Source: Limisphaerales bacterium
Lineage (GTDB): Bacteria; Verrucomicrobiota; Verrucomicrobiia; Limisphaerales; JADLHS01
NCBI GenBank assembly: GCA_020848635.1
Contig: JADLHS010000426.1
Location: forward strand, 1-39,512
DNA: 39,512 nucleotides
Direction: 5' to 3'
Below are positions 7,255 to 25,940 of this stretch, in pieces. The translations under genes and the position numbers were made by a program. The notes beneath the pieces were generated by a model. The model saw nothing but the letters and a program-made list of their open reading frames with translations. It made no database searches and had not been told where the DNA came from. Each line of letters starts with the position of its first letter. Position 1 is the first letter of the stretch.

Positions 7255-8862
7255 ATGAATTCCGCGTTTGGCACCCTCTCGGTCTCGCTCATGCTAATTG
7301 CCTGCCGCGTGGCCCAAGGGGGCCTCTACCTGCCGTCCATTACGAACGGCGACATCGCCATCCTCCTGCAACCCATTGCGACCGGTTTGGCCGCACCCGA
7401 TTACGCCATCAGCCCACCAGGCGACCCCAACCGCCTCTTCGTAGTGGAGCAGAACGGGTTGCTACGCATCATCCAGAACGGAACATTGCTGCCCGGGTCG
7501 GCGCTCGATCTGCAGAACCGCGTACAACCGCCACTCAACCCTGCCAACGCCAATGACGAACGCGGTTTCCTCGGTCTGGCCTTCCATCCCGGCTTCAACA
7601 CCCCGGCCAGCCCCGGTTTTCGTACGCTCTACACCTATAACAGTGAGATGATCCCGGCTGGAACGACGCCCACTTACCCGGCGCCGAATGCGGCGCCGAA
7701 CAATTACAAAAACGTCGTCAACGAATGGAAAATTTCCGCCACGGACGCCAATGTTGTCGATCCGGTTTCCCGCCGGGAGGTGATCTCGTTCGGCAAGAAT
7801 GCAAACAATCATAATGGCGGCACCATAACTTTCGGACCCGACGGCTATTTGTATCTTGGCTTGGGCGACGGCGGCAACGCCAATGATGTCGGAGCGAGCC
7901 ATATCGAGCCGGGCGGCAACGCCCAGAACCTGAGCACTCCGCTTGGCAAAATGTTGCGGTTCGACCCGCTGAACCCAGCCCTCACGGCTGCCAGCCCCGA
8001 TCTGGTGAGCGCCAACGGCCAGTATCGCATCCCGGTAAGCAATCCGTTCCAAGGGGCCGGCCAGGTACCGGAAATCTACGCGTACGGATTGCGCAACCCC
8101 TATCGCTTTTCGTTTGACCGTGCCAGTGGCGACCTGATTCTGGCGGACGTTGGCCAGAACAACATCGAGGAGATTGATCGCATCGTGCTAGGCGGCAACT
8201 ACGGTTGGGCAATTAAAGAAGGGGAGTTTCTTTTCGATCGAATGAACGGCACCATTGGGTCGCCTCCGGGTAATCGCAGCCCAGGGAGTCCGGCGGGGCT
8301 CAACGATCCGATTGTCGGCAGCTTCGGGACCCTGGAGTACGATCACGGTGATGGCATCTCCATCACCGGCGGATTCATCTATCGCGGAACCGCGATCCCG
8401 GCGCTGTATGGGAAGTACGTTTTCGGCGATCTCGCGATTCGGAACGCCCCTCCGCGTGTGGATGGCCGGCTCTTTTACGCCGACCTTCAGACCGGGCTGA
8501 TCAAGACGATTCCCCTGCCCCAGTTCACAACGGGCATTTTGCCGAACGGCCTTACCGTGCACGGTTTTGGCGAAGACGCGCAGGGCGAACTCTACGCGCT
8601 GGTGACCAACACATCGGCCAACGGGACCGGCGGAATCGTTTACAAGTTCGTTGCGGTGGGCCTGGCTTTGCAACCGTCGGGCAACGTGTTGGACATTTCC
8701 TGGCCGGCCACCGGTGCCAGACTGGAAACACAGACCAACAGTCCGAGTACGAGTCTTGGGACAAACTGGGTCACCGTGCCGGGTTCGGCGACGACCAATC
8801 GGGTCGTCGTGCCAATTGACCCGGCCAATGGCAGCGTGTTTTATCGGCTGGCCTTACCATGA
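7255..8862 (+). CDS. PQQ-dependent sugar (aldose) dehydrogenase-like secreted protein
   Basis: This 535-residue protein belongs to the soluble glucose/sorbosone dehydrogenase family (six-bladed propeller, YliI/GSDH type). The start ATG 7255 has a strong GGAGG 7 nt upstream and opens a signal peptide (MNSAFGTLSVSLMLIACRV). Diagnostic segments are LFVVEQNGLLRII, RGFLGLAFHPGF, the likely active-site region NNHNGGTITFGPDGYLYLG, LGDGGNANDVG, YAYGLRNPYRFSFD and DVGQNNIEEID. Family members oxidise sugars in the periplasm with bound PQQ, but many relatives are uncharacterised. The last 70 or so residues leave the propeller and form a separate module ending VFYRLALP, resembling the C-terminal module of the neighbouring secreted protein at 8983. 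No c-type haem motif CxxCH was seen. Confidence 0.85.
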   Translation: MNSAFGTLSVSLMLIACRVAQGGLYLPSITNGDIAILLQPIATGLAAPDYAISPPGDPNRLFVVEQNGLLRIIQNGTLLPGSALDLQNRVQPPLNPANANDERGFLGLAFHPGFNTPASPGFRTLYTYNSEMIPAGTTPTYPAPNAAPNNYKNVVNEWKISATDANVVDPVSRREVISFGKNANNHNGGTITFGPDGYLYLGLGDGGNANDVGASHIEPGGNAQNLSTPLGKMLRFDPLNPALTAASPDLVSANGQYRIPVSNPFQGAGQVPEIYAYGLRNPYRFSFDRASGDLILADVGQNNIEEIDRIVLGGNYGWAIKEGEFLFDRMNGTIGSPPGNRSPGSPAGLNDPIVGSFGTLEYDHGDGISITGGFIYRGTAIPALYGKYVFGDLAIRNAPPRVDGRLFYADLQTGLIKTIPLPQFTTGILPNGLTVHGFGEDAQGELYALVTNTSANGTGGIVYKFVAVGLALQPSGNVLDISWPATGARLETQTNSPSTSLGTNWVTVPGSATTNRVVVPIDPANGSVFYRLALP

Positions 8863-9651: not shown

Positions 9652-9796
9652 ACCACTGCGAAGCCAAGTTCGCTACGTTTGGATGTTGGATGCGTCCGTC
9701 CAAGCCACCCATAGCAATGGCAGCCCAAAGCTCGGCAGCAGCAGGCCCTCCCCGACGAGGTATAACGGGAAAAAGCTCGCGAGACCTCGAGGCCGC

Positions 9797-12897: not shown

Positions 12898-13725
12898 ATG
12901 AATGAGAATCGTGTGGTTGGCGTTAGGAATTTAAGGTACTCGCTCGCGATCCTCGGAATAGCCCTTGGTGCGACACTGGGCAGCGGTTGCACCACCGTTC
13001 CGGTCACGGGCCGCTCGCAGCTGAATTTGATGTCACCCGGTCAGGAAATGCAGCTCGGCCTGACCAGTTTTGAAGCGACCAAGCAGCAGTTGCCGATCAG
13101 TCAGGATGCCACCGCGAAAGCCCTCGTGCAGAAGGTCGGTCAACGGATCGCCGCGGTCGCGGCGGGCGACATGCCGAATGCGCAGTGGGAATTCGTGGTC
13201 TTTGAAAGCCAGGATGCCAACGCGTTTTGTTTGCCCGGTGGAAAAGTGGGTGTCTATACCGGCATCCTGCCAATCACAAAGGACGAAGCGGGGCTGGCGG
13301 CGGTGCTGGGTCACGAGATCGCGCACGCGGTGGCGCGGCACGGCGGCGAGCGGATGAGCGAGGCGATGGTGGTCCAGACGGGCGGAAGTTTATTGGGAAT
13401 CGGCCTGGCGAATTCAGATCCGCGCTTGCAGGCGGCCGCCCAACTGGCGTATGGCGTCGGCACGAAAGTGGGCGCGGAGTTGCCGCACAGCCGCGCTCAA
13501 GAATCCGAGGCGGACCACATCGGGCTGATTTATATGGCGCGGGCTGGTTACGACCCGGAGCAGGCGGTCAAATTCTGGGAGCGGTTTGCGGCATTCAACC
13601 AGCAATCGGGTGGCGAAACGCCATGGTTCTTGCGCACGCATCCGCTGGATGAGGTCCGCATCCGGCAGCTCAAGGAATGGATGCCGGCCGCGCGCGCCCA
13701 AGTTCCGGCCGCCGGGGCGAAGTAA
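12898..13725 (+). CDS. M48 family zinc metalloprotease, predicted lipoprotein
   Basis: This 275-residue protease starts at ATG 12898; a TTG 12 nt upstream is also in frame. The N-terminus is a lipoprotein signal (YSLAILGIALGATLGSGC, lipobox Cys about residue 31), so the protein should be anchored in a membrane on the periplasmic side. The zinc site is visible as HEIAH (His139, Glu140, His143) and ESEAD (Glu202 to Asp206). It matches the LoiP/YcaL-like single-domain M48 lipoproteins thought to handle envelope protein quality control, rather than the multi-pass HtpX. It is divergent from the sigma factor and convergent with the M24 peptidase, 12 nt between stops. Confidence 0.9.
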   Translation: MNENRVVGVRNLRYSLAILGIALGATLGSGCTTVPVTGRSQLNLMSPGQEMQLGLTSFEATKQQLPISQDATAKALVQKVGQRIAAVAAGDMPNAQWEFVVFESQDANAFCLPGGKVGVYTGILPITKDEAGLAAVLGHEIAHAVARHGGERMSEAMVVQTGGSLLGIGLANSDPRLQAAAQLAYGVGTKVGAELPHSRAQESEADHIGLIYMARAGYDPEQAVKFWERFAAFNQQSGGETPWFLRTHPLDEVRIRQLKEWMPAARAQVPAAGAK

Positions 13726-13737
13726 ACCGTCAGCACC

Positions 13738-14871
13738 TCACAATTCCAAGGCCTTCTCGAACTGCGTGAGGTTGCGGGCACCGGTTTGCGTAACGAGCGC
13801 CACATCCTCGAGCCGGATCCCGCCCAATTCGGGGTAGTAAAGTCCCGGCTCTACGGTCACGACCTGGCCGGCCAGGAGGTTGCCGGTCGAATGTTGCCCC
13901 AAGCGGGGTGCTTCGTGGATTTCCAAACCCACTCCGTGCCCCGTGCCGTGAAAAAAACCTTCCATGCGGCCAAGCCGCCGTCCGGTTTTGTAACCTTCCT
14001 GGGCGAAGTAATCCAAAACGGCGTGATGGACATCCGCCGTGGGCACCCCTGCGCGAACCCGGTCAAACCCGATCTTCTGCCCCCGCCGCACCGTGTCGTA
14101 CAATCGCCGCACGGCCTCGCTCGCCCGCCCGCGCACCACCGTGCGGGTGATGTCACCAAAGTAACCGGTGGTTTGGGAGCGTGGAAAAATATCAATTATG
14201 ATGGGCTCCTGCGCCCGCAATGGCCCGAATCCGCGCTCGTGGGGATCGCAGCCTTGCTTGCCGCCGGCGACGATGGTATTGGCCGCCAAGCCGCCCGCCT
14301 GCAGGATCGCCGTGTCAATCACCGCGCGCAATCGCTCCGAGGTCAGCGGAATATTGTGGTGCAGCAGGCGCCGGTCGCGTCCGATCTTCGCGCTCCGTAA
14401 AACCTGCATGGCCTCGGACATGCCCACTTCCGCCATCATGAGCGCGGCGCTGATCTTCTTAACTTCCGCGGGCGTCTTCTGTTCGCGCTGCGGGAAGAAA
14501 TTCCCGCGCGTCGGGCGTACCGCAATGCGCAGCCGTTTCAATTCGTCAGCCAGACCGAGCGGGAAATTGGGGGGCACGAGCACGCGCCGGATCCTCCGCT
14601 CGCGCAACAGGCTGGCAATAACCTGGGCATGGCCGGGTGATTTCACGCCGGCTTTACGCAATCTATCCTGGCACCTGCTCAACGGGAGCGGTCGGCAATG
14701 CGGGGCATCCCGCCGGGCGCGGTCAATTTCCAAATCGCTCAACACGATGCTCGAACGTCCGCGCAGACGCAGGTAGATGAACGGGTCAGGCACAAACATG
14801 CCCACGGCGTAAAGCATGTTTGCGTCATGCTCGCTGTCGGCGACCATCAAAAGATTCTCGGAGGATTTCAT
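13738..14871 (-). CDS. M24 family aminopeptidase (Xaa-Pro aminopeptidase-like)
   Basis: This 377-residue cytoplasmic peptidase has ATG 14871 preceded by GAGAG; a longer in-frame reading to 14988 runs through a repeat element and is rejected. The C-terminal pita-bread domain shows the dimetal ligands in order: Asp in IIIDIFPR, Asp in YFGDITRTVV, His in FFHGTGHGVGLEIHE, Glu in VTVEPGLYY and Glu in IRLEDVALV. The N-terminal creatinase-like domain is present but divergent, so the family is certain and the Xaa-Pro specificity is only likely. Confidence 0.88.
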   Translation of the reverse strand: MKSSENLLMVADSEHDANMLYAVGMFVPDPFIYLRLRGRSSIVLSDLEIDRARRDAPHCRPLPLSRCQDRLRKAGVKSPGHAQVIASLLRERRIRRVLVPPNFPLGLADELKRLRIAVRPTRGNFFPQREQKTPAEVKKISAALMMAEVGMSEAMQVLRSAKIGRDRRLLHHNIPLTSERLRAVIDTAILQAGGLAANTIVAGGKQGCDPHERGFGPLRAQEPIIIDIFPRSQTTGYFGDITRTVVRGRASEAVRRLYDTVRRGQKIGFDRVRAGVPTADVHHAVLDYFAQEGYKTGRRLGRMEGFFHGTGHGVGLEIHEAPRLGQHSTGNLLAGQVVTVEPGLYYPELGGIRLEDVALVTQTGARNLTQFEKALEL

Positions 14872-15102: not shown

Positions 15103-15726
15103 TCAGACGCCGAACAACCGGTCGCCCGCATCACCCAAGCCCGGAAGGATGAACCCGTGCCGGTTCAGTTTGGCATCAATCGCCGCCGTGAAAATGCGCA
15201 GCGTGGGACAATGCTGGCGCACATGACGGATGCCTTCCGGCGCGGCGACGAGATTTACCAGGCGCACGTTACGCGCACCCAGTTCGGCCAGCAGCGCCAT
15301 CGCCGCCACAGTGCTGCCGCCGGTGGCGAGCATGGGATCAATGAGGATCACTTCACGCTGGCGTAAATCCTTGGGCAGGCTCTTGTGATAAAACTGCGCG
15401 GCCAGGGTTGTCTCCTCGCGCTTCAATCCAATGAAGCCAACCCGGGCCTTCGGGATGAGTTGCAGAATGGAATCCAGCATCCCCAGCCCAGCCCGCAACA
15501 CCGGCACGAGGACAACCTCGCGGCGGAGTTTTAGTCCGCGCGTGGTGGCGAGCGGGGTGCGGACGGTCACTTTGTCGGTGGCAAAGGTGCGGGTGGCCTC
15601 GTAAATCATGAGCGCCGCGACCTCGCTGAGGACGCGACGGAATTCCTGGGGTTCGGTGCGCTCGTCGCGCAGCCGCGTGAGGTTGTGCTGCACCAGCGGG
15701 TGCGTGATGACCGTCACGCCTTTCAC
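15103..15726 (-). CDS. upp: Uracil phosphoribosyltransferase
   Basis: This enzyme forms UMP from uracil and PRPP (pyrimidine salvage, cytoplasm). I place the start at GTG 15726, giving 207 residues, the usual family length. The alternative is a much longer frame read through sppA. The start is supported by the conserved opening VTVITHPLVQHNLTRLRD and by its position 1 nt after the sppA stop (TGA-C-GTG), implying translational coupling. Other signatures are VPVLRAGLGMLDSI, GFIGLKREETT, the PRPP loop VILIDPMLATGGSTVAA and the C-terminal IDAKLNRHGFILPGLGDAGD. Confidence 0.95.
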   Translation of the reverse strand: MKGVTVITHPLVQHNLTRLRDERTEPQEFRRVLSEVAALMIYEATRTFATDKVTVRTPLATTRGLKLRREVVLVPVLRAGLGMLDSILQLIPKARVGFIGLKREETTLAAQFYHKSLPKDLRQREVILIDPMLATGGSTVAAMALLAELGARNVRLVNLVAAPEGIRHVRQHCPTLRIFTAAIDAKLNRHGFILPGLGDAGDRLFGV

Positions 15727-15727
15727 G

Positions 15728-16867
15728 TCAGTGCAGGAAAAGGGGCGATAGAAAGTACATCCGCCCGGCCTGGAGTTTGGGCAGGTCCAGGCCAAGGTCC
15801 ACCTTGAACGCCCGGCTCTCGCTCTGCCCAAACATGCTGAACAACTCGGCGAAATCATTGCGCTGGCGGTACTCGATCAAATTGGCCTGCTTCTTGACGC
15901 CGCCCAGCTCCTCGGCCTTTCCCACCGCATCGTCGAAGGAGCCCAGTTGATCCACGAACCCCAGGTTGAACGCCTCTTTGCCCGACAACACGCGACCATC
16001 CGCGTAATCAACCCAGTCGGACGCGAGGACCTGGCCGTCCTTGTTGCTCTCGTGCGCGTTCTTGCGGCCTTCAGCGACCACGCTCTTGAACTTTGCAAAA
16101 GTCTCGTCAATCAGCTTTTGCACCATGGCCCGTTCTGCCGGGGTGATGCTGCCCGGCTCACGTGAACCGCTCATCATGTCCTTGAATTTTCCGCTCTTAT
16201 AGACTTCCGGCACGAGTCCGACCTTGTCCATTAATCCTCGATAGTTAAAGCCGTGCATGATTACCCCGATGCTTCCGGTGATGGTAAGTTCATTCGCCAC
16301 GATCCATTCGCACGGCGCGGAAACGTAATAACCGCCCGAGGCCGCCAGACTGCCCATCGAGACGATCACGGGCTTGCCCGCATGACTCTGAAACTCGGTA
16401 ATCGCCCGGGCAATGTCATCCGACGCCATTACCTCGCCCCCGGGTGAGTCAACCTTGAGAATAACCGCTTTCACCTTCTTGTCCTCCTCGGCGCGATCCA
16501 ACTGCGCCTTCACCACGTCCACCAGACTGTATCCGCCGCGACCGCTCAACTCGCCGCTGATGATCCCCTCAATTGGAATAACGGCGATTTTGTCTGAAGC
16601 ATCGTTATCCTCCAACACGACTTCATCGAGGCGCGGGCCACCGGAGCGTTGATGGCCGCTACTGATGCCGCTGAGATGGGTGAACGATTTGAACAGGCCG
16701 CCCAAGTTGGCCAGCACACTCACGGTCAACAGTAAAAATAGAATAATCGAGACAATCATCCAGCCCCGACTTTTGCGCGGTGGTGTGGGCCGCGGCGGCA
16801 CGATGATGGGTGGCGGCGATTGAGACGGCGGCGGCGGAACGAACGGCGGCGGTGTGGTGCTTTCCAT
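15728..16867 (-). CDS. sppA: Signal peptide peptidase SppA, short form
   Basis: This 379-residue membrane serine protease degrades leftover signal peptides. It has a Pro-rich cytoplasmic head (residues 5-30), one transmembrane helix (about 36-54, GWMIVSIILFLLLTVSVLA), then the S49 domain. The Ser/Lys dyad is visible: Ser177 in SLAASGGYYVS and Lys229 in YKSGKFKD. The 52-residue spacing equals that of the Bacillus enzyme, and the single S49 domain is the Gram-positive/short type rather than the tandem E. coli type. LKVDSPGGEV precedes the active site. The ATG at 16867 fits. upp follows after 1 nt. Confidence 0.93.
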   Translation of the reverse strand: MESTTPPPFVPPPPSQSPPPIIVPPRPTPPRKSRGWMIVSIILFLLLTVSVLANLGGLFKSFTHLSGISSGHQRSGGPRLDEVVLEDNDASDKIAVIPIEGIISGELSGRGGYSLVDVVKAQLDRAEEDKKVKAVILKVDSPGGEVMASDDIARAITEFQSHAGKPVIVSMGSLAASGGYYVSAPCEWIVANELTITGSIGVIMHGFNYRGLMDKVGLVPEVYKSGKFKDMMSGSREPGSITPAERAMVQKLIDETFAKFKSVVAEGRKNAHESNKDGQVLASDWVDYADGRVLSGKEAFNLGFVDQLGSFDDAVGKAEELGGVKKQANLIEYRQRNDFAELFSMFGQSESRAFKVDLGLDLPKLQAGRMYFLSPLFLH

Positions 16868-17164
16868 AACGAACGCAACCTAGCCAAAGCGCTCGGGCCG
16901 GGCAAGCGGGATTGCGCGAATCACGGAATGCGTGCCCATCCGTTTAAACCCCGTTTTTGACCCTTTCCTGCCGAACAACGGTTTCCAGGAATTGGGGTGA
17001 TCCATTACGCCCGGCTGCATTTGCACATGAGGGCAATCTCCGGAGGAGACGATTCTTGGATCGCCAAGGCAAACGAAACGGTCGTTATCAAACAAGAAGG
17101 CCCGTTGCGTTTGCGTACTGCCCCCGATCTGCGCTCCAATCGCACTGGAAACGCAGTTCAGGTA

Positions 17165-17422
17165 CTGGGTGCTGATGCGAATAAACTCTGTCGGCGCGCT
17201 GCACCCGGGCAGAACGAAAGTCTTCGTGTTTCCGTCACCGAGAATGTTGGGGCGATCACTCCAGCCACCCACCGCCAGGTTGGCACGGGCCTGGACCGTA
17301 TTGGTTGTTCCAGTTTGCGAGCGGAACTGGAATTGGAAGCGGCTGCCGGCCGTCTGCGGATTGAGGAAAGTCACCGGCAAGGTCAGCGCAGACAATGCCT
17401 CCTTGTCGGTGATTTTGGGCGG
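17165..17422 (-). pseudogene. Relic of a secreted-protein C-terminal module
   Basis: The minus strand reads KITDKEALSALTLPVTFLNP, FQFQFRSQTGTTNTVQARAN, LAVGGWSDRPNILGDG and APTEFIRIST. I recognise this as the beta module that closes many Verrucomicrobia exported proteins (compare the ends of the proteins at 7255 and 8983). It has no catalytic domain, no signal peptide and no ATG upstream: a stop at 17423-17425 precedes it. The frame stays open beyond the expected module end down to 16880, but that tail looks like untranslated sequence. It is most likely a truncated remnant. Confidence 0.45.
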
Positions 17423-17454
17423 CTAGCCGCTGCGGTGATAGGCAAGTCCAGGAT

Positions 17455-18048
17455 TTACGCAGCTCGGCCTGGCACTGGTTTCGGCCAGGCGTCCAACTCC
17501 TCCCGCACGCGCTCCACGGGCAGCCCCACAACGTTGCTGTACGATCCGGAGATTTCCTCAATGACAAGTTCGCCATGCTCCTGGATTGCGTACGCACCCG
17601 CCTTGTCCAGCGGGTGAATCCGCGAAAGATAATTCCGCACCTGCGCCGCATTCAGCGCACGAAACCGCACATCCGTGCTCACCGTAAAAATCCGTTCCCG
17701 ATGCGCGCGCAAGTGTATCAGACTCACACCGGTGACAACCTGATGGGTGGATCCTTGCAACCGGGCCAGCATCCCCTGCGCTTCCGTTAAATTCGCCGGC
17801 TTGCCAAAAACCTCCCGCCCGCGAAACACCAACGTATCCGCCCCGAGCACCAGAGCATCCGGAAACCGTTTGGCCACCGCGCGCGCCTTGCGATGCGCAT
17901 TAAGCTGACACAACTCGTAAGGCGACAACTGCCCCTCCACCAGCTCCGCTACCCCACTCGCCACCACCTTAAATCCCCCCACCACCAGCCCCAACAACTC
18001 CACCCGCCGCGGCGACGCGGACGCCAAAATCAAAGCCGGCAAATTCAT
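17455..18048 (-). CDS. maf: Maf-like nucleoside triphosphate pyrophosphatase
   Basis: This 197-residue cytoplasmic house-cleaning enzyme hydrolyses non-canonical or excess NTPs such as dTTP/UTP. The family marks are complete: ILASASPRRVELL at the N-terminus, VLGADTLVF with the catalytic Asp, STDVRFRALN, DKAGAYAIQEHG and GSYSNVVGLPV. ATG 18048 is chosen because the SASPRR motif must lie near the start; upstream in-frame sequence to 18183 is unlike Maf. It is divergent from the Wsp-like MCP gene. The stop codon lies inside a short repeat-like sequence (17441-17463) also seen in linkers of the chemosensory genes. Confidence 0.93.
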   Translation of the reverse strand: MNLPALILASASPRRVELLGLVVGGFKVVASGVAELVEGQLSPYELCQLNAHRKARAVAKRFPDALVLGADTLVFRGREVFGKPANLTEAQGMLARLQGSTHQVVTGVSLIHLRAHRERIFTVSTDVRFRALNAAQVRNYLSRIHPLDKAGAYAIQEHGELVIEEISGSYSNVVGLPVERVREELDAWPKPVPGRAA

Positions 18049-18132
18049 CGCTCCATCATAATACCCTGCCGCGGAGAACAAAGCCAGCCCCGCGCAAGCC
18101 CATCCCGGACATACGCCATCCCCACCCGAGTT

Positions 18133-18154
18133 GAAAACAAACCTGCTTGTTTTC
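18133..18154. promoter_or_regulatory. 22-bp inverted repeat, candidate operator for maf/MCP divergent promoters
   Basis: GAAAACAA and TTGTTTTC form perfect 8-bp arms around a 6-nt centre. It lies in the 140-bp gap between divergent maf and the MCP gene, 34 nt before the GTG chosen for the MCP. Position and symmetry fit a regulator site for the operon; the regulator is unknown. Confidence 0.4.
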
Positions 18155-18188
18155 CCCTCAAAAAAGTCCCACGCTTCCCCCACTAACT

Positions 18189-19793
18189 GTGCCCAACACC
18201 ACCACCATCTGGAAACGCCTCAACACCACCCGCGTCATCCTCATCACCCTGCTCCTCGTCGCCAGCGGCCTCGCTTGGTGGATGGAACGTACGCGCTCCG
18301 AAGGCCAACACACCAGCGACCGCCTCACCCGCGACACCACCCAACTCCACTACTACTTCAGCGAAATGAGCGACGCCCTCCAAGCCCTGCTCGCGGACCC
18401 CCGCAGCCGCCTCGACAAACAACGCCTCGAAGTCACTGAACGCAACCTGAAAGAACACCTCGACAGCCTCCTCAAAACCAGTGAATTCGCCACCGAACCC
18501 CAACTCGCCACCCCCCTCAAAAGCCTGAGCGAATACCTCCGCCTCACCCTCGACCCCTTTCAAGCCAAAGTCCAAGACCTCCTCACTATCGACCCCCAAA
18601 CCGGCCGCGACTACTACACCAAAGCCCAACCCGAAATCACCCGGCAACGCAACGAGCACCTCAAAGAACTCACTCGCCAAACCGCCGACCACAGCCAAGC
18701 CGCCCTCAACCGCGGCCAATACACCGCCGTCATCGCCTGCACCGGCATGGCCGCCGTCCTCGTGTGCGCCATCCTCGTCCTCCGCGCCCAAACCAGCGCC
18801 GTCACCCTGCCGCTGCACCAACTCACCACCGCCATCGAACACATGCGCCACGGCGACTTCACCCACCGCCTCCACCTCCCCCGCCGCGACGAATTCGGCC
18901 TCCTCGCCGACGGCCTCAACCACCTCGCCGACGACCTCTCCCACCTCGTCAGCCAAGTCCAACAGTCCGGCATCCAAGTCAACATCACCGCCACCCAAAT
19001 CGCCGCCTCCGCCAAAGACCAACAAACCACCACCACCGAAATCGCCGCCACCACCGCCCAAATCGGCGCCACCTCCAAACAAATCTCCGCCACCACCCAG
19101 GAACTCGACCACACCATGAACGAAGTCGGCGGCGTCGCCCAAGACACCGCCGCCCTGGCTGGCCGGGGCCAGACCGGCCTCACCCGCATGGAAACCACCC
19201 TGCGCCAGATCATGGACGCCGCCGGCGCCATCACCGGCAAACTCGCCGTCCTGAACGAAAAAACCACCAACATCAACACCGTCGTCACCACCATCACCAA
19301 GGTCGCCGACCAAACCAACCTCCTCTCCCTCAACGCCGCCATCGAAGCCGAAAAAGCCGGCGAATATGGGCTCGGCTTCGCCGTCGTCGCCATGGAAATC
19401 CGCCGCCTTGCCGACCAAACTGCCGTCGCTACCTATGACATCGAAAAAACCGTCAAAGAAATGCACACCGCCGTCACCGCCAGCGTCATGGGCATGGACA
19501 AATTCGCCGATGAAATCCGCCGCGGCGTCGAAGACATCCGGCAAGTCAGCAGCCTCCTGGCCCAGATCATCCACCAAGTCCAGACTCTCACTCCCCGTTT
19601 TGCCACCGTCAGCGAAGGCATGCACGCCCAAGCCACCGGCGCCGCCCAGATCAGCGAAACCCTCCTCCACCTCAGCCAGGCCGCCGCCCAAACTGCCGAT
19701 TCCCTTCGCCACTCCACCCTCGCCATCGACCAACTGAACGCCGCCGCCCGCGGCCTCCAAACCGGCGTCGCCCGCTTCAAACTCGAAGCCTGA
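18189..19793 (+). CDS. wspA: Methyl-accepting chemotaxis protein, WspA-like
   Basis: This is the sensor that clusters in the membrane and controls the CheA kinase. There is no ATG start: I use GTG 18189 (534 residues). TTG 18147 is in frame but lies in the inverted repeat. Layout with that start: TM1 about 16-33, a helical periplasmic domain of about 140 residues, TM2 about 178-198, HAMP about 199-252, then the cytoplasmic signalling coiled coil with the tip near VADQTNLLSLNAAIEAEKAG. There is no C-terminal CheR-tethering pentapeptide (it ends RFKLEA). It is first gene of the operon, matching the Wsp order. Base use is odd: the coding strand is very rich in C and poor in G (31 C against 10 G in 18781-18840), unlike the CheW/CheR genes downstream. 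Confidence 0.9.
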   Translation: MPNTTTIWKRLNTTRVILITLLLVASGLAWWMERTRSEGQHTSDRLTRDTTQLHYYFSEMSDALQALLADPRSRLDKQRLEVTERNLKEHLDSLLKTSEFATEPQLATPLKSLSEYLRLTLDPFQAKVQDLLTIDPQTGRDYYTKAQPEITRQRNEHLKELTRQTADHSQAALNRGQYTAVIACTGMAAVLVCAILVLRAQTSAVTLPLHQLTTAIEHMRHGDFTHRLHLPRRDEFGLLADGLNHLADDLSHLVSQVQQSGIQVNITATQIAASAKDQQTTTTEIAATTAQIGATSKQISATTQELDHTMNEVGGVAQDTAALAGRGQTGLTRMETTLRQIMDAAGAITGKLAVLNEKTTNINTVVTTITKVADQTNLLSLNAAIEAEKAGEYGLGFAVVAMEIRRLADQTAVATYDIEKTVKEMHTAVTASVMGMDKFADEIRRGVEDIRQVSSLLAQIIHQVQTLTPRFATVSEGMHAQATGAAQISETLLHLSQAAAQTADSLRHSTLAIDQLNAAARGLQTGVARFKLEA

Positions 19794-20032
19794 ACCATGG
19801 AGGATTAAAATTCAAAAGTGCAATATCCAAAATCAGCAAGGCCGGCGTCCGCCCCGTATAAGTTTCACGCCGGAGCCACCGGTGGCTTAGGCTTTACGTG
19901 ATTCGCGCGATTTCAATTTGCATTCGTAATTATTTTGACCGTCACGGCGAGGGTTTCGCGACTCATTTTTGACGCTTAGTTCTGAATTGAATCGGCCTAT
20001 GAAGTTATTAATTGTACATTTTTGAATTTGAA
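19794..20032. other. 239-bp intra-operon spacer with two hairpins
   Basis: This spacer between MCP and CheW is AT-rich at both ends. It holds a stem CCGGCGT (19842-19848)/ACGCCGG (19867-19873), followed at once by the 14-bp perfect palindrome AGCCACCGGTGGCT (19874-19887). The sequence 19842-19856 recurs almost exactly inside the downstream cheW gene (20387-20401). No gene-like frame is present. The hairpins could be an mRNA-processing or attenuation site, or part of a dispersed repeat. A second promoter for the rest of the operon is possible, but I cannot point to a convincing -35/-10. Confidence 0.45.
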
Positions 20033-20563
20033 ATGCTCTTTGTGCTCTTCCAACTCGGCCAGGACCGGTACGCGCTGGAAGCCCGTCGTGTGGTGGAAGT
20101 GTTGCCGCTGCTGGCGCTGAAACGCCTGCCCGCCTCGCCCCGGGGCGTGGCCGGTGTTTTTGTCTATCGCGGCCAGCCCGTACCCGCGCTCGACCTGTGC
20201 GAACTCACGCTAGGCCGCCCCGCCCGCGAACAACTCAGCACCCGCATTCTCCTCGTCCAACACCGCCAAACCGCGGGCCCCAGCCAGTTGATTGGGCTGG
20301 TCGCGGAGCGCGTGACCGGCACGTTGCGGCGGGAGGAAAAGGATTTTGTGCCGGCGGGCCACGTAAGACCTGAGCGACAGGCATCTCCGGCGTCCGCCCC
20401 ATACGTGGCGGGCATGAAACGGGCAGCGACCCCGTTTCTCGGGCCCATTTTGATAGACGATCAGGGCGTCATTCAACTTCTGGACGCCCAGGGCCTTTTG
20501 GACGCCGGCGCGCATCAACTGCTCTTAACCCAATCCGTGGAGGTCAGCGATGCGCCTCATTGA
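20033..20563 (+). CDS. wspB: CheW coupling protein, WspB-like
   Basis: This 176-residue protein couples the MCP to the CheA kinase. ATG 20033 opens the typical CheW strand MLFVLFQLGQDRYALEARRV; a TTG 21 nt upstream is also in frame. Later CheW marks are GVAGVFVYRGQPVPALDL and a GLVAERV strand. Between VPAGH and TPFLGPILIDDQG there is an insertion of roughly 20 residues (RPERQASPASAPYVAGMKRA) not expected in CheW. Part of its DNA matches the intergenic hairpin at 19842. The gene ends 14 nt inside the next gene (cheR). Position after the MCP matches WspB. Confidence 0.88.
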   Translation: MLFVLFQLGQDRYALEARRVVEVLPLLALKRLPASPRGVAGVFVYRGQPVPALDLCELTLGRPAREQLSTRILLVQHRQTAGPSQLIGLVAERVTGTLRREEKDFVPAGHVRPERQASPASAPYVAGMKRAATPFLGPILIDDQGVIQLLDAQGLLDAGAHQLLLTQSVEVSDAPH

Positions 20564-21797
20564 AGCCCTGCTCCGCCGCCACATCGGCCTCAATGCGGCC
20601 TCCATCGGCTCCGCCCTGATCGAGCGGGCGGTCCGGGGGCGCATGCAAGCGCACGGGTTGAAGAATTCGGACACCTACCATGACCTGCTCGCCACCTCCC
20701 GCCAGGAGTTGGAACAACTCATCGAAGCCGTGGTCGTGACCGAAACGTGGTTTTTCCGGGACCAAGAATCGTTCGACCGTTTCACCCAAATCGCCCTGCA
20801 CGAATGGCGGCCCCGCCATCCAGCGGCCCCGTTGCGCGTGTTGAGCATGCCCTGCGCCTCCGGCGAAGAACCTTATTCCCTCGCCATGGCGCTGCTCGAA
20901 GCCGGCCCCCCCGCGCCCGGCTTCACCATCGACGCAGTGGACATTTCCGCCCTCGCCCTCGCCCGAGCGGAACGAGCCGTCTATGGAAAAAACTCGTTCC
21001 GTGGACGGGAGCTTGGCTTCCGCGACCGGCACTTTCTGCCCACCATGGAGGGCTATGCCCTCAGTCCGCTCGTGCGTCGCTGTGTAACATTTGAGCAGGG
21101 CAACATCCTCGATGCTAGTTTGCTGGCCGGAAGACCCCCGTATGATTTCATTTTTTGCCGCAACTTGCTGATCTACTTCGACCGCGCCATGCAAACCCTC
21201 GCCTTGGCGAAACTCCATCGCCTGTTGGCCGACGACGGCCTTCTCTTCGTGGGCCCGGCGGAATTAGCGCTGGTGGTGGAAAGCGGCTTTCACCACGCTG
21301 GTTTGCCGATGGCGTTCGCCTGTCGTAAGGCGGCCGGAAACACCACGCCAGCGGAAACTCCGCCCCCCCGACCGAGCCCTGCCACCTTGACCGAAACACC
21401 ACGCCAGCCGCACACGGGTGACCCCGCCCCGCCGCGGATAGCGGAACCCTCCTCGCGCGAGCAGGTCCAAGATCTACGCGACCCGACCCCGGCGATGGTA
21501 GATCTGGAGATCGCGTGCCAGCATGCGAACGCCGGTCGCCTCGCCGAAGCCGCGGCCATCTGCGATGCGTATCTCACCCTTGAAGGCCCGGCAGCGCAGG
21601 CGTATTATCTCCTGGGATTGGCCAGCGACGCCAGCCACGATCCAGCGGCGATCACTTACTATCGCAAAGCCCTTTACTTGGAGCCGAATCACTATGAAGC
21701 GCTGACCCACCTCACGCTTGCCTTGGAAAAATCGGGCGATGTGGGGGCCGCGCGGATCTTCAAGCGCCGCGCCGAACGTGCGCAGCCCAAACCGTGA
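20550..21797 (+). CDS. wspC: CheR methyltransferase with C-terminal TPR, WspC-like
   Basis: This 415-residue enzyme methylates glutamates on the MCP using S-adenosylmethionine. The start ATG 20550 has GGAGGT 5 nt upstream and overlaps cheW. The CheR N-terminal helical domain contains VTETWFFRDQESFDRF. The SAM-binding site shows MPCASGEEPYSLAMAL, IDAVDIS and FIFCRNLLIYFD. A Pro/Thr-rich linker (about 265-310) leads to TPR-like helices (AYYLLGLASDASHDPAAITY, YYRKALYLEPNHYEALTHLT). The CheR-TPR fusion is the hallmark of WspC. The linker DNA holds a 16-nt direct repeat (21337-21352, 21393-21408) and a 55-nt sequence shared with the CheA linker. It overlaps the next gene by 1 nt (TGATG). Confidence 0.93.
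   Translation: MRLIEALLRRHIGLNAASIGSALIERAVRGRMQAHGLKNSDTYHDLLATSRQELEQLIEAVVVTETWFFRDQESFDRFTQIALHEWRPRHPAAPLRVLSMPCASGEEPYSLAMALLEAGPPAPGFTIDAVDISALALARAERAVYGKNSFRGRELGFRDRHFLPTMEGYALSPLVRRCVTFEQGNILDASLLAGRPPYDFIFCRNLLIYFDRAMQTLALAKLHRLLADDGLLFVGPAELALVVESGFHHAGLPMAFACRKAAGNTTPAETPPPRPSPATLTETPRQPHTGDPAPPRIAEPSSREQVQDLRDPTPAMVDLEIACQHANAGRLAEAAAICDAYLTLEGPAAQAYYLLGLASDASHDPAAITYYRKALYLEPNHYEALTHLTLALEKSGDVGAARIFKRRAERAQPKP
21337..21408 (+). repeat. 16-nt direct repeat in the CheR linker
   Basis: GAAACACCACGCCAGC occurs at 21337-21352 and again at 21393-21408, inside the Pro/Thr-rich linker between the CheR and TPR domains. The 56-nt distance is not a multiple of 3, so the two copies are read in different frames. 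Confidence 0.7.
21431..21485 (+). repeat. Linker repeat copy 1 (CheR)
   Basis: This 55-nt stretch aligns without gaps to 22951-23005 in the CheA gene, with 41 of 55 positions identical by eye. Both are read in the same frame and both lie in an interdomain linker. Confidence 0.45.
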
Positions 21798-22522
21798 TGG
21801 AACCGCACGCCAGAGCCAATCCGACGGTCATCACCGATTTCTCGGTGACGCCCCACGACGACCAACCGGCGGAAGTCTCCGATTGCTGGAATCAGATTGG
21901 CGTGAGCGGAAACCAAACTTGCCGCGAACTGTCGCGGCACATTCATTGCCAAAACTGCCCCGTTTATTCCGCCGCCGCCGTCCAGTTACTTGATCGCCCG
22001 CTCAGCGCGGAGGATCGCCGCGCCTGGACCGAACATTACGCCCACGAGAAGCCGCTCGGGGCCCCCGCCAAAACCTCTGCGCTTCTGTTCCGCCTGGACG
22101 GGGAATGGCTCGCACTCCCCACCACGGCGTTTCAGGAAATTACCGAGCGCCGCGTCGTCCACAGCCTGCCCCACCGGCGCCTGGCGATAGTCCTTGGTCT
22201 GGTCAACGTGCGCGGAGAATTGCTCATCTGCGCCTCGCTCGCCCGTCTGCTTGGCCTCGAATTCCGCCCGCCCGCCAAGCCTGTGCGCGCCGTGTTCGAT
22301 CGCCTGCTGGTCGCGGACTGGAACGGCGAGCGCTTTGCATTCCCGGTGGATGAGGTTCACGGCGTGCATCGGTTTCATCAGAGCGACCTGCGCAAACCGC
22401 CCGCCACCATTGCGCGCTCCGGCCTGAACTGCGCCCGAGGGGTGTTTCCCTGGCGCAACTTCGCGGTGGGTTTTCTGGATGCCGACGCCGTGTTCGCCGC
22501 GCTCAACCGCAATCTCGCGTGA
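21797..22522 (+). CDS. wspD: CheW-like coupling protein with Cys-rich head, WspD-like
   Basis: This is a 241-residue second CheW. ATG 21797 overlaps the cheR stop by one base; GTG 21794 is also possible. The head holds DCWNQIGVSGNQTC and IHCQNCPVYS (Cys30, 42, 51, 54), a pattern I associate with WspD. The spacing could bind a metal or be redox active, but that is not established. The CheW domain follows from about residue 90 (ALLFRLDGEWLALPTTAF, LGLVNVRGELLICASLARLL, FPVDEVHGVHRF). Its stop overlaps the CheA start by 4 nt (GTGA). Two CheW proteins flanking CheR is the Wsp arrangement. Confidence 0.9.
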   Translation: MEPHARANPTVITDFSVTPHDDQPAEVSDCWNQIGVSGNQTCRELSRHIHCQNCPVYSAAAVQLLDRPLSAEDRRAWTEHYAHEKPLGAPAKTSALLFRLDGEWLALPTTAFQEITERRVVHSLPHRRLAIVLGLVNVRGELLICASLARLLGLEFRPPAKPVRAVFDRLLVADWNGERFAFPVDEVHGVHRFHQSDLRKPPATIARSGLNCARGVFPWRNFAVGFLDADAVFAALNRNLA

Positions 22523-24837
22523 ACAAGCGCCTACACGAGAATCCCCGCGAGCTGTCCATGCAGGAATTATTTCGCGTGGAAGCGGAAAATCAGACCGCGC
22601 TGCTCACCAGCGGCCTGTTGGAACTGGAACGCGCGCCTGCTTCGCCCGCGCAACTCGAAGCCCTCATGCGGGCCGCGCACTCGCTCAAAGGGGCCGCCCG
22701 CATTGTCAATCTACTCCCGGCTGTCCACATCGCCCACGCCATGGAGGATTGTTTCGTCGCCGCGCAAACGGGCCGGCTCGTCCTGACACAGCGCCACGTT
22801 GACTTGCTTCTGCGCGGCGTGGATTGGCTCGCCGGGGTGGCCAAGCACGACGAAGTTTCCATCCTGCGGTGGCAGGCCGATCAGGGTGCGGACTGTGACA
22901 CCTGGTTGCGCACCGTTGGCACCTTCCTGACGCCGGCGCATTCCTTGCCCGCCGCGAATAGCGAGCCCTCCCTTGCGCAGGCAGGCCCAGAATTTACGCG
23001 GCCCGCCCGCGCGCCAGGGAGTCCTGCCAGCGTCGGCAGCGTGGCCCTCCAACCCAGCGAAAACCATCCGCCGTTTACCGCCGAAACCGACGCTGGCGAC
23101 CGCGTCCTGCACCTGACCGCCGAGAATCTTAATCGCCTGCTGGGGCTCGCTGGTGAGGCGCTCGTTGAATCACGCTGGTTGCGGCCGTTTGCGGAATCCC
23201 TGCAACGCCTCAAACGCATGCAGACGGATTTGGAACGCACGCTCGATGAGTTGCGCCAATCGTACAGCGACGAACGCCGCGCGCCACAAACACGGGAAAC
23301 GATCAACGGTCTGTATCAACAAGTCACTGAGGCACAGCAGCATCTCAACGGTCGTTTGCTGGAACTGGATTTGTACGATCGGCGCGCGGCCAGCCTGTCC
23401 AACCGGCTTTACCTCGAAGTGCTGCGCACGCGCATGCGGCCCTTTGCCGACGGCGTCCAACGTTTTCCGCGCATGGTGCGGGACCTGGCCCGCGCCCTGG
23501 GCAAAGAGGTCCGGCTGGAAATCCTGGGCGAAAGCACGCAGGTGGATCGCGATATTCTCGGTCGCCTGGAAGCCCCGCTCGCCCACCTGCTCCGCAACGC
23601 GGTGGATCATGGCTGCGAATTCCCCGACGCGCGGCGCCGCGCCGGTAAACCAACTGAAGCCACCATTCGCCTCGAAGCCCGGCACAGCGCCGGCATGCTG
23701 CAAGTCATCGTGGCCGATGACGGGGCGGGACTGGACCTCGACCAACTCCGGCGCGCGATCGCGGAACGACAACTGACCACGCCCGCGGTGGCGGAAAAAA
23801 TGAACGAGGGAGAGTTGCTGCAATTCCTATTTCTCCCCGGCTTTACCCTGCGGGACCAGGTGACGGAGTTTTCCGGTCGCGGCGTGGGTCTCGACATCGT
23901 TCAGACCATGACCCGCAGTGTCCGCGGCGGGGTGCGGGTAACGAACCAGGCGGGGAACGGCATGCGGTTTCAGTTGCAATTGCCGCTTACCCTCTCCGTC
24001 CTGCGCACCCTCCTCGTCGAAATCGGGGGCGAGCCCTATGCGTTTCCCCTGGCCCAGATCGCCAGCACCCTCATACTGCCACGACCCCGCATCGAAACGC
24101 TCGAAGGCCGGCATCACTTCCGACTGGCGGATCAACACGTCGGACTGCTCGCGGCGCACCAGGTGTTCGAGTGTCCGGAGGTGATCCTCCCCGACCCTGA
24201 TCTGCCCATCGTGGTCATCGGCGATCACAGCTGCCGTTACGGCTTGCTTGTGGACCGTTTCCTTGGCGAACGCGAACTGGTGGTACAACCGCTCGATCCG
24301 CGCCTGGGCAAAATCAAGGACATTAGCGCGGCCGCGTTGATGGAGGATGGCGCCCCGGTGTTGATCGTGGACGTGGACGATCTGCTGCGCTCGATCGAAA
24401 AGCTAGTCACCAGCGGGGCGCTGGAAAATGTGGCTCGCAGCGTGTTGGCCGCCCCCGTCCCGCCGCGGAAACGCGTGCTCGTGGTGGACGACTCGCTCAC
24501 GGTGCGGGAATTGGAACGGAAATTACTGGAAAGCGCCGGCTATACCACAGAGGTGGCGGTGGATGGTATGGACGGTTGGAACGCGGTCCGCGGGGGCGGG
24601 TTTGACCTGGTGATCACCGACGTGGACATGCCCCGGCTCGACGGCATCGAACTCGCCATCCTCATTAAACAAGACGCCCGACTGAAAGCGCTGCCGGTTA
24701 TGATTGTCTCTTACAAAGACCGGGAGACGGATCGCCTGCGCGGTTTGGAAGCCGGGGCCGACTATTATCTGACCAAAGGCAGTTTCCATGATGAAACCCT
24801 GCTGCGCGGGGTGGTGGATTTGATTGGCGAAGCCTAA
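22519..24837 (+). CDS. wspE: CheA histidine kinase fused to receiver, WspE-like
   Basis: This 772-residue hybrid kinase is the core of the chemosensory complex. I use GTG 22519, coupled to the wspD stop; ATG 22558 would also keep the HPt domain. Layout: HPt with the phosphorylated His54 in AAHSLKGAARIV; a Pro/Ser-rich linker; dimerisation helices (about 225-300); HATPase with HLLRNAVDHGCE, VIVADDGAGLD and FSGRGVGLDIV; CheW-like domain (about 490-620); and a C-terminal receiver with Asp701 in LVITDVDMPRLDG and acidic residues in LVVDDSLTV. There is no separate P2 CheY-binding domain. In Wsp, this kinase phosphorylates WspR and CheB (WspF). Here the likely partner is the WspR-like receiver at the start of the last operon gene. 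Confidence 0.94.
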   Translation: MNKRLHENPRELSMQELFRVEAENQTALLTSGLLELERAPASPAQLEALMRAAHSLKGAARIVNLLPAVHIAHAMEDCFVAAQTGRLVLTQRHVDLLLRGVDWLAGVAKHDEVSILRWQADQGADCDTWLRTVGTFLTPAHSLPAANSEPSLAQAGPEFTRPARAPGSPASVGSVALQPSENHPPFTAETDAGDRVLHLTAENLNRLLGLAGEALVESRWLRPFAESLQRLKRMQTDLERTLDELRQSYSDERRAPQTRETINGLYQQVTEAQQHLNGRLLELDLYDRRAASLSNRLYLEVLRTRMRPFADGVQRFPRMVRDLARALGKEVRLEILGESTQVDRDILGRLEAPLAHLLRNAVDHGCEFPDARRRAGKPTEATIRLEARHSAGMLQVIVADDGAGLDLDQLRRAIAERQLTTPAVAEKMNEGELLQFLFLPGFTLRDQVTEFSGRGVGLDIVQTMTRSVRGGVRVTNQAGNGMRFQLQLPLTLSVLRTLLVEIGGEPYAFPLAQIASTLILPRPRIETLEGRHHFRLADQHVGLLAAHQVFECPEVILPDPDLPIVVIGDHSCRYGLLVDRFLGERELVVQPLDPRLGKIKDISAAALMEDGAPVLIVDVDDLLRSIEKLVTSGALENVARSVLAAPVPPRKRVLVVDDSLTVRELERKLLESAGYTTEVAVDGMDGWNAVRGGGFDLVITDVDMPRLDGIELAILIKQDARLKALPVMIVSYKDRETDRLRGLEAGADYYLTKGSFHDETLLRGVVDLIGEA
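22951..23005 (+). repeat. Linker repeat copy 2 (CheA)
   Basis: This is the partner of 21431-21485, located in the linker between the CheA HPt and dimerisation domains. Its 3' half (22980-23002) also aligns with 17441-17463 at the end of maf, 19 of 23 positions. Confidence 0.45.
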
Positions 24838-24840
24838 ACC

Positions 24841-24939
24841 ATGCAAAATGAAGCATTACAACGAAAGGCCAGCCCGGTGTGGGTTGATTGGTTGTCCATT
24901 TTGAGTTTAGCCGGCTTAAGTTTCGCATATCGAACATGA
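24841..24939 (+). CDS. 32-residue small ORF between cheA and cheB, possible coupling ORF
   Basis: ATG 24841 lies 3 nt after the cheA stop. The frame runs 32 codons and ends in a TGA that overlaps the cheB start as ATGA (24936-24939). The product begins MQNEALQRKASP and continues with a hydrophobic stretch, WVDWLSILSLAGLSFAY, that could be a short membrane helix. The tight fit at both ends resembles translational coupling and would explain how ribosomes cross the 98-nt gap to cheB. Base use is more AT-rich than in the neighbours, and I recognise no family, so it may be a leader without a product role. Confidence 0.4.
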   Translation: MQNEALQRKASPVWVDWLSILSLAGLSFAYRT

Positions 24940-25940
24940 AAATCGGCATCGTCAACGTTGGGGTGCTGGCCGCGGAGGCCATCCGCCGCGTGATCGTGCG
25001 CAGCGGCAAACATGACGTGGCCTGGATCGCCCGGGATGGCGCGGAAGCAGTCGCACGGTGCCACCGCGACCGGCCGGATCTGGTGTTGATGGACTTGTTC
25101 ATGCCGCGCTTGGACGGCGTGGAGGCGACGCGCCAAATCATGGCGCAAACGCCGTGCGCCGTCATTGTAGTCACCGCGAAGGCCGAGGATCATCCGGGGA
25201 AGATTTTTGAGGCGATGGGGGCGGGGGCGCTCGACGTCGTGAACCTCCCCGTGCTCAGCGACGCCGCCCCGCTCGAAAGCGCGCAGGCGTTACTGGCGAA
25301 AATTGAAATCATCAGCCGGCTGATCGGGTCGGAACCTCCACCGGCATCCCCACCCGCGCCAACGAAGTTGCCTTCCGAAGGCCTCGTCGCCATTGGCGCC
25401 AGCGCCGGCGGGCCGACCGCGCTGGCCGCGATCCTGGCCGCCCTGCCGGCCCATTTTCCCGCCGCCGTGGTCATTGTGCAGCACTTGGACAAACAATTTG
25501 CGCCGGGCCTGACCGCGTGGTTCAGCACCCGCACCAAGCTGCCGGTGCGCGTGGCCCAGGAAGGCGACCGCATTGAATCGGGAACGGTTTTCCTTGCGGG
25601 CGGCGATCAGCATTTGATCTTGTCCGGCCCGCGGCAACTCGGCTACGCCGCCCAGCCCGGCGAGGCTTCCTACTGTCCGTCGGTGGATGTTTTCTTTCGG
25701 AGCGTGGTGCGCCAGTGGCGAGGCGCGGTGGTGGGGGTAATCCTCACCGGGATGGGCCGTGACGGAGCGGAGGGACTTAAACTCCTGCGCAATGCTGGAC
25801 ATCCCACCATAGCCCAGGACAAAAACACCAGCGCCGTCTACGGGATGCCCCGGGCCGCCGCCGACCTGGACGCCGCCAAGGAAATTTTAGCGCTGGACAA
25901 AATCGGCCCGCGCCTCACGAATATGTTCCGACTGAAATAA
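24936..25940 (+). CDS. wspF: CheB methylesterase/deamidase, WspF-like
   Basis: This 334-residue enzyme removes methyl groups from the MCP and resets the system. ATG 24936 begins the receiver strand [20 protein letters not shown]; an in-frame start at 24888 adds only unlikely sequence. The receiver phosphorylation site is Asp53 ([12 protein letters not shown]). A Pro-rich linker leads to the esterase domain with catalytic Ser156 ([11 protein letters not shown]), His183 (VQHLD) and Asp276 ([10 protein letters not shown]). In Pseudomonas, loss of the equivalent protein locks the Wsp system on, so it is the likely negative regulator here. The stop is 7 nt before the output gene. Confidence 0.95.

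Follow-up and report, generated by a model that had tools for sequence, protein, structure and literature searches.

A locally confined, four-copy direct repeat in the chemotaxis region of a Limisphaerales bacterium

Background

In bacterial genomes, direct repeats that lie close together or spaced apart are reportedly short local duplications, a view attributed to Achaz and co-workers, and heptanucleotide repeat arrays represent a further class of short repeated DNA, the STRR type of cyanobacteria. The palindromic elements of Rickettsia (PMC2229807) are 105-146 bp in length, form long stem-loops from inverted repeats at their ends, and are found in many genes and spacers. In this study, a stretch of 39,512 nt from a Limisphaerales bacterium of the Verrucomicrobiota (contig JADLHS010000426.1 of assembly GCA_020848635.1, positions 1 to 39,512; hereafter the window) was analysed, and four related copies of a short DNA segment, designated a to d, were identified in and around its chemotaxis genes.

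Results

The four copies all lie on the forward strand within 5.6 kb, with starts at approximately 17411, 18065, 21428 and 22948, and are alignable over about 62-65 nt. Copy a (21428-21492) is located in cheR (20550-21797, forward strand; PF01739, E 1.5e-38), in the linker between the methyltransferase domain and the C-terminal part of the protein. Copy b (22948-23012) is located in cheA (22519-24837, forward strand; Hpt, HATPase, CheW-like and receiver domains, PF01627, PF02518, PF01584 and PF00072), in the linker after the Hpt domain. According to the Pfam domain limits and residue arithmetic, copy a corresponds to CheR residues of about 295-312, with the methyltransferase domain ending at residue 240, and copy b to CheA residues of about 145-163, with Hpt ending at residue 99. 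Both copies are inside intact open reading frames, and open reading is preserved through them. Copy c (17411-17472) spans the stop codon of maf (17455-18048, reverse strand; PF02545, E 4.3e-52); the TAA (17455-17457, reverse strand) lies inside the copy, which supplies the last Maf residues together with the stop, and its right half is well preserved. Copy d (18065-18129) occupies the spacer of the divergent genes maf and mcp and was first grouped with a and b by a repeat finder (family D3, 18065-18128). The Pfam matches in the region comprise CheR, CheW, CheA, CheB, an MCP and Maf.

A preliminary description of this DNA had reported an ungapped match of 41 of 55 bases between the two linkers (21431-21485 and 22951-23005) and had placed both stretches between protein domains. 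The match was reproduced and widens to 48 of 65 over the full copies, and the position between domains is borne out by the Pfam domain ends. The further claim that the two stretches are read in the same frame was mistaken: base 21431, where the alignment begins, is the third position of a CheR codon, whereas its counterpart 22951 is the first position of a CheA codon. Because the frames differ, convergent amino-acid composition cannot produce the match, and the fallback that the same description had kept in reserve, convergent Pro/Arg/Ser coding, is thus excluded as well. The recurrence that it had noted at 17441-17463, across the maf stop, holds and represents the core of a third copy, with 19/23 identities to b and 17/23 to a and an alignment that runs on to 17472. 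Copy d, which it did not mention, is identical to a at 42/65 positions.

The pattern of substitution is informative. Across the 55 bases, a and b differ at 14 positions, 13 of them by transitions, so that the purine/pyrimidine pattern is the same at 54/55 positions, and within the 23-nt core all differences are transitions (6/6 between a and c, 4/4 between b and c). For comparison, transitions account for 33% of the differences in random pairs with at least 27/55 matches, and a and d differ in the 55 bases by 10 transitions and 9 transversions. The transition pattern is that of recent common descent at the DNA level.

The agreement among the copies was then compared with that expected by chance. 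In 197 windows with dinucleotides shuffled within 300-base blocks, each scored for its best 55-mer pair anywhere, this pair had 34 to 40 identities; 41 was reached in 0/197 (Gumbel P about 5e-4), and the best pair of a smaller earlier set of 6 shuffles was at most 37. In a held-out test, a matrix built from copies a and b only scored copies c and d at 25.7 and 29.1, respectively, against a maximum of 24.9 in 200 simulated windows. In real DNA, the best score of this matrix was 22.0 over 464,060 positions of the organism's own genome (12 stretches) and 21.5 over 1,456,390 positions of relatives (40 stretches), and the two held-out copies exceed all of the approximately 1.9 million positions sampled.

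The related genomes (denoted by G numbers; L numbers denote individual stretches) allow copies a, b and d to be viewed as additions. The congeners G001 and G002 carry cheR, cheW and cheA in identical order, and maf is also present on the stretches analysed from G001, G003, G004 and G005. In protein and linker alignments, the CheA piece is missing in both of these congeners; G002 has a shorter CheR linker, and the sequence in the CheR linker of G001 is a different one. Positions 17400-25000 were aligned, unguided, with the two congeners, and window-specific insertions of at least 12 bases were listed. Insertions relative to G001 were found at 18069-18117 (49 nt, copy d), 19793-20022, 20351-20404, 21388-21470 (overlapping copy a), and 22950-22979 and 23017-23040 (copy b); relative to G002, they were found at 19794-19827, 19925-20032, 20350-20403, 21401-21496 (overlapping copy a) and 22960-23013 (54 nt, copy b). 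The insertion at 20351-20404 relative to G001 is offset by an equal deletion nearby and is probably an alignment artefact, and 17400-17508 and 17532-18132, also listed for G002, lie past the end of its contig. The insertion at 18069-18117 relative to G001 provides independent support for copy d. The sites of G001 and G002 that correspond to those of the copies are too diverged to define insertion ends, and Maf ends earlier in G001 and G003 than in the window. In comparison with G002, the four-fold sites of cheR and of the initial part of cheA (84 the same, 18 transitions, 62 transversions) are far more diverged than a is from b; the copying between a and b is therefore probably younger than the split from G002. 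Copies a and b probably arose after the lineage had separated from both G001 and G002.

That this CheR linker is a tolerant site is supported by the relatives, in which it takes up other kinds of repetitive DNA. Arrays of 7-base units occur there in G001, G003, G011 and, weakly, G002 (L143-L149), and an 8-base array in G007 (period 8 z 14.1); the period-7 z values of these linkers are 13.4 in G003, 12.2 in G001, 7.4 in G011, 3.3 in G002 and 2.9 in G005. The array in the G003 linker has 26/30 bases in common with an array downstream of cheA, and in the translated stretch of G001 (L144) cheR goes out of frame after the linker, giving two tblastn pieces in different frames; this would reflect a frameshift, or an error of assembly, within or close to the heptamer array. 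Matches to the heptamer pattern are well above reversed controls in G001, G002, G003, G006, G007, G008 and G011, and are not raised in the organism's own genome (5 vs 4), G010 (4 vs 4) or G009 (10 vs 21).

Two other features were noted in the region. A 16-nt exact direct repeat (21337-21352 and 21393-21408, forward strand), read from the sequence alone, adjoins copy a in the CheR linker. In the maf/mcp interval, a near-palindrome at 18133-18155 recurs with 1 to 3 mismatches, at one site each, in G001, G002 and G004, and is thus present in 4 of 12 family genomes including the organism's own; a similar string was seen by eye in G003. It resembles a conserved promoter or operator element serving the gene for the chemotaxis receptor.

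Further copies were sought in the organism's own assembly, which comprises 5.85 Mb in 706 contigs and is 92.6% complete, so that absence of copies from it is not absolute. BLASTN with copies b, a and c gave, beyond the query, short GC-rich noise only (best E 0.038, 0.003 and 0.22, respectively). When up to 3 mismatches were allowed, a 20-nt pattern matched 12 sites, of which two, b and c, had no more than 1 mismatch and a had 3; a reversed-pattern control matched 25 sites. Profile R1, built from a, b and c, scored these three copies at 49.8-54.5 bits and the next match at 14.2 bits (E 0.37); profile R2, built from all four, gave 41.8-51 bits for the copies and 14.1 bits (E 0.42) for the next match. 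At this sensitivity, all copies found in the genome are confined to 17.4-23.0 kb of one contig. Among 195 relatives, 19 had R1 matches at E ≤0.05 (best 20.8 bits) and none had a convincing copy; the ten best, inspected as alignments, show scattered identities without a common pattern and look like chance. BLASTN with copy b in 57 genomes (the organism's own and relatives) gave short matches in 4 others (best E 3.3e-4). The exact core pattern had 0 matches in viral contigs, a plasmid search gave no match, and Rfam gave none over 17000-25000.

Palindromic structure was likewise sought. The folding of the copies as DNA is no better than that of shuffles (z 0.14, -0.03, 0.64 and 0.32 for a, b, c and d), with no palindrome and no long stem-loop, and of 250 inverted-repeat pairs the 25 longest include none with its arms at the copies, so that terminal inverted repeats of the miniature inverted-repeat transposable element (MITE) type are lacking in this set. 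These results bear on the interpretation offered in the preliminary description, namely a dispersed repeat inserted in tolerant linkers, with further family copies expected in the genome and a likeness in principle to the palindromic elements of Rickettsia. A DNA-level repeat at tolerant sites (in two linkers, at the end of a gene and in a spacer) survives from this interpretation, with copies a, b and d on or overlapping insertions. Dispersal is not supported, since the four copies sit in one locus and the whole-genome searches found no others; outside this locus, the lack of further copies is the very outcome that the preliminary description had named as refuting a dispersed family. Nor is the Rickettsia likeness supported, on account of folding, length and dispersal alike.

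Discussion

The occurrence of four direct copies within 5.6 kb, with none found elsewhere, points to local copying. Our favoured explanation, to which we assign a probability of about 0.6, is that the four stretches go back to a single DNA segment, some 60-65 bases long, that underwent local duplication in direct orientation inside these 5.6 kb and was kept at harmless sites. Template switching during replication, or a spaced duplication that was later deleted in part, would be the likely copying route, and the copies may have been retained where extra sequence does no harm, that is, in two flexible interdomain linkers, at the maf end and in the maf/mcp spacer. The data show the copies themselves, their kinship as DNA, the difference in reading frame, their absence from the linkers of the nearest relatives and, at the sensitivity used, their confinement to this locus; the mechanism of copying, the source copy (if there was one) and the lack of function are inferred.

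Local repeats were also observed elsewhere. As a parallel to the four copies, CheR of G011 has an insertion that repeats, at a distance of 982 nt upstream, about 56 nt of the cheW-cheA spacer (core 29/30). In the organism's own genome, stretch L202 contains a tRNA-Val piece (14554-14593) about 1.15 kb from the tRNA gene (15700-15774), and in stretch L198 gene 3'-end pieces are repeated nearby (7892-8100, 9673-9788, 13472-13730 and 16965-17890), which we read, from their motifs, as the ends of trpE and hisF. A count of local repeats on samples, restricted to short pieces with same-frame-coding ones excluded, gave 1 in 39,512 nt for the window, 2 in 179,691 for G011, 2 in 200,000 for G004, 7 in 151,064 for G002 and 8 in 200,000 for G010 (a single cluster in L246 accounts for 6); the G002 and most G011 stretches are a biased sample, picked from contigs with heptamer matches. 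Hairpins account for at least some of the G002 pieces, and long, near-perfect hairpin elements of about 130 nt occur in that genome at L239:11516-14652 as two copies and a related piece. In G010 (L246:1520-4546), a non-palindromic 45-60-nt sequence occurs four times between small genes over about 3 kb, with 87-96% identity to the query copy and none elsewhere in G010 at E <0.7; this is possibly a small cassette array. A broader proposal, which we consider speculative and on balance doubtful, is that a recurrent local copy-and-paste process in this Verrucomicrobiota family seeds 50-60-nt segments of a locus into linkers and spacers nearby in that locus, with the four copies and the independent G011 pair as two outcomes; the chemotaxis linkers would then consist partly of non-coding scraps in arbitrary frames.

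Several observations weigh against local duplication. The route bears no direct mark: no source copy was identified, and neither a target-site duplication nor a junction homology was demonstrated. Copies c and d are the weaker members: c retains the right half alone, and d differs from a by 11 transversions among 23 differences in 65 bases. Profile R1, built without d, gives d just 7.1 bits (E 0.45), a low score that is probably due to the lack in copy c of the left half that d has, and the R2 scores of the copies are not independent, as all four went into that profile. At copy c, the DNA beyond maf is unalignable to the congeners, and the spacer insertion at 19793-20032 (230 nt, 19793-20022, relative to G001) is no copy at all. 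Moreover, with 3 short, non-paralogous local repeats in 232,798 nt, the organism's own genome is not clearly richer in them than proteobacterial controls (5 in 634,638 nt, from 48 of 80 loci, hand-picked), and the automatic count missed several pieces visible by eye.

The strongest competitor of local duplication, possible though distinctly less probable, is that the copies are survivors of a dispersed repeat family, or of a mobile element that was small and non-autonomous, most copies of which are gone, unassembled or decayed beyond recognition. Insertions at tolerant sites relative to congeners are what such an element would leave, an assembly of this fragmentation and completeness may miss copies, and other genomes of the family hold genome-wide short repeats in the form of heptamer arrays. 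However, no copy was found elsewhere in the 5.85 Mb by sequence, pattern or profile, the copies have neither inverted repeats nor a stable fold, the 195 relatives yielded only weak, chance-like matches of at most 20.8 bits, and four random insertions within 5.6 kb would be very unlikely.

Chance, or convergent coding of GC-rich Pro/Arg/Ser linkers, is a very improbable source of the match. Both linkers are GC-rich and under low constraint, and single comparisons are marginal at the scale of the genome; copy c by itself has P of about 0.004 per window under the first null model and a genome-scaled E of about 0.6. Nevertheless, the frame difference strongly disfavours this explanation, as do the shuffles and the excess of transitions; in addition, 2/4 copies are outside linkers, and the held-out copies fall in the same 5.6 kb.

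A functional cis element, such as a protein binding site or structural DNA repeated across the chemotaxis locus, would accord with the single orientation, the single locus and the purine/pyrimidine pattern shared by a and b. It is very unlikely all the same, given that congeners of identical gene order lack the sequence in their linkers, that neither a fold nor an Rfam match (over 17000-25000) was detected, and that conservation weakens in the left half of c and in d. Diversity-generating template and variable repeats were also considered and would be disfavoured, as the differences in the sequences are not confined to one base.

Decay of a heptamer array like those of the relatives' CheR linkers is the least credible origin: the arrays occupy the same linker and lag 21 is the best lag of copies a, b and d, yet the period-7 z values of copies a to d (2.4, -0.4, -1.5 and 0.2) reveal no heptamer periodicity beside those of G003, G001 and G011.

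Under local duplication, which we continue to favour, CheR and CheA each read these 60 bases in a frame of their own, and further copies provide the stop for maf and lengthen a spacer. The linkers of conserved signalling proteins can thus acquire sequence from DNA not retained for its coding, and local similarity between the linkers of unrelated proteins need not imply a mobile family or a shared function.

Comparison with known systems

Relative to heptanucleotide arrays, the resemblance is one of site, as relatives hold 7-base arrays at the same CheR linker and the copies in the window are without period 7. With the palindromic elements of Rickettsia, the repeat has in common that short extra DNA is tolerated inside conserved protein genes; it differs in its length of about 60-65 nt, in being without a palindrome and in its restriction to a single locus. 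The closest likeness is to spaced direct repeats, which are short direct copies a few kb apart in the same orientation that decay by point mutation. Here, too, the orientation is the same, the distances are a few kb and the copies are few; the differences are that there are four copies rather than two, that at least two of them lie inside coding linkers in different frames, and that the duplication mechanism is a presumed one. The repeat of this chemotaxis region is therefore best described as a locally confined, four-copy, spaced direct repeat.

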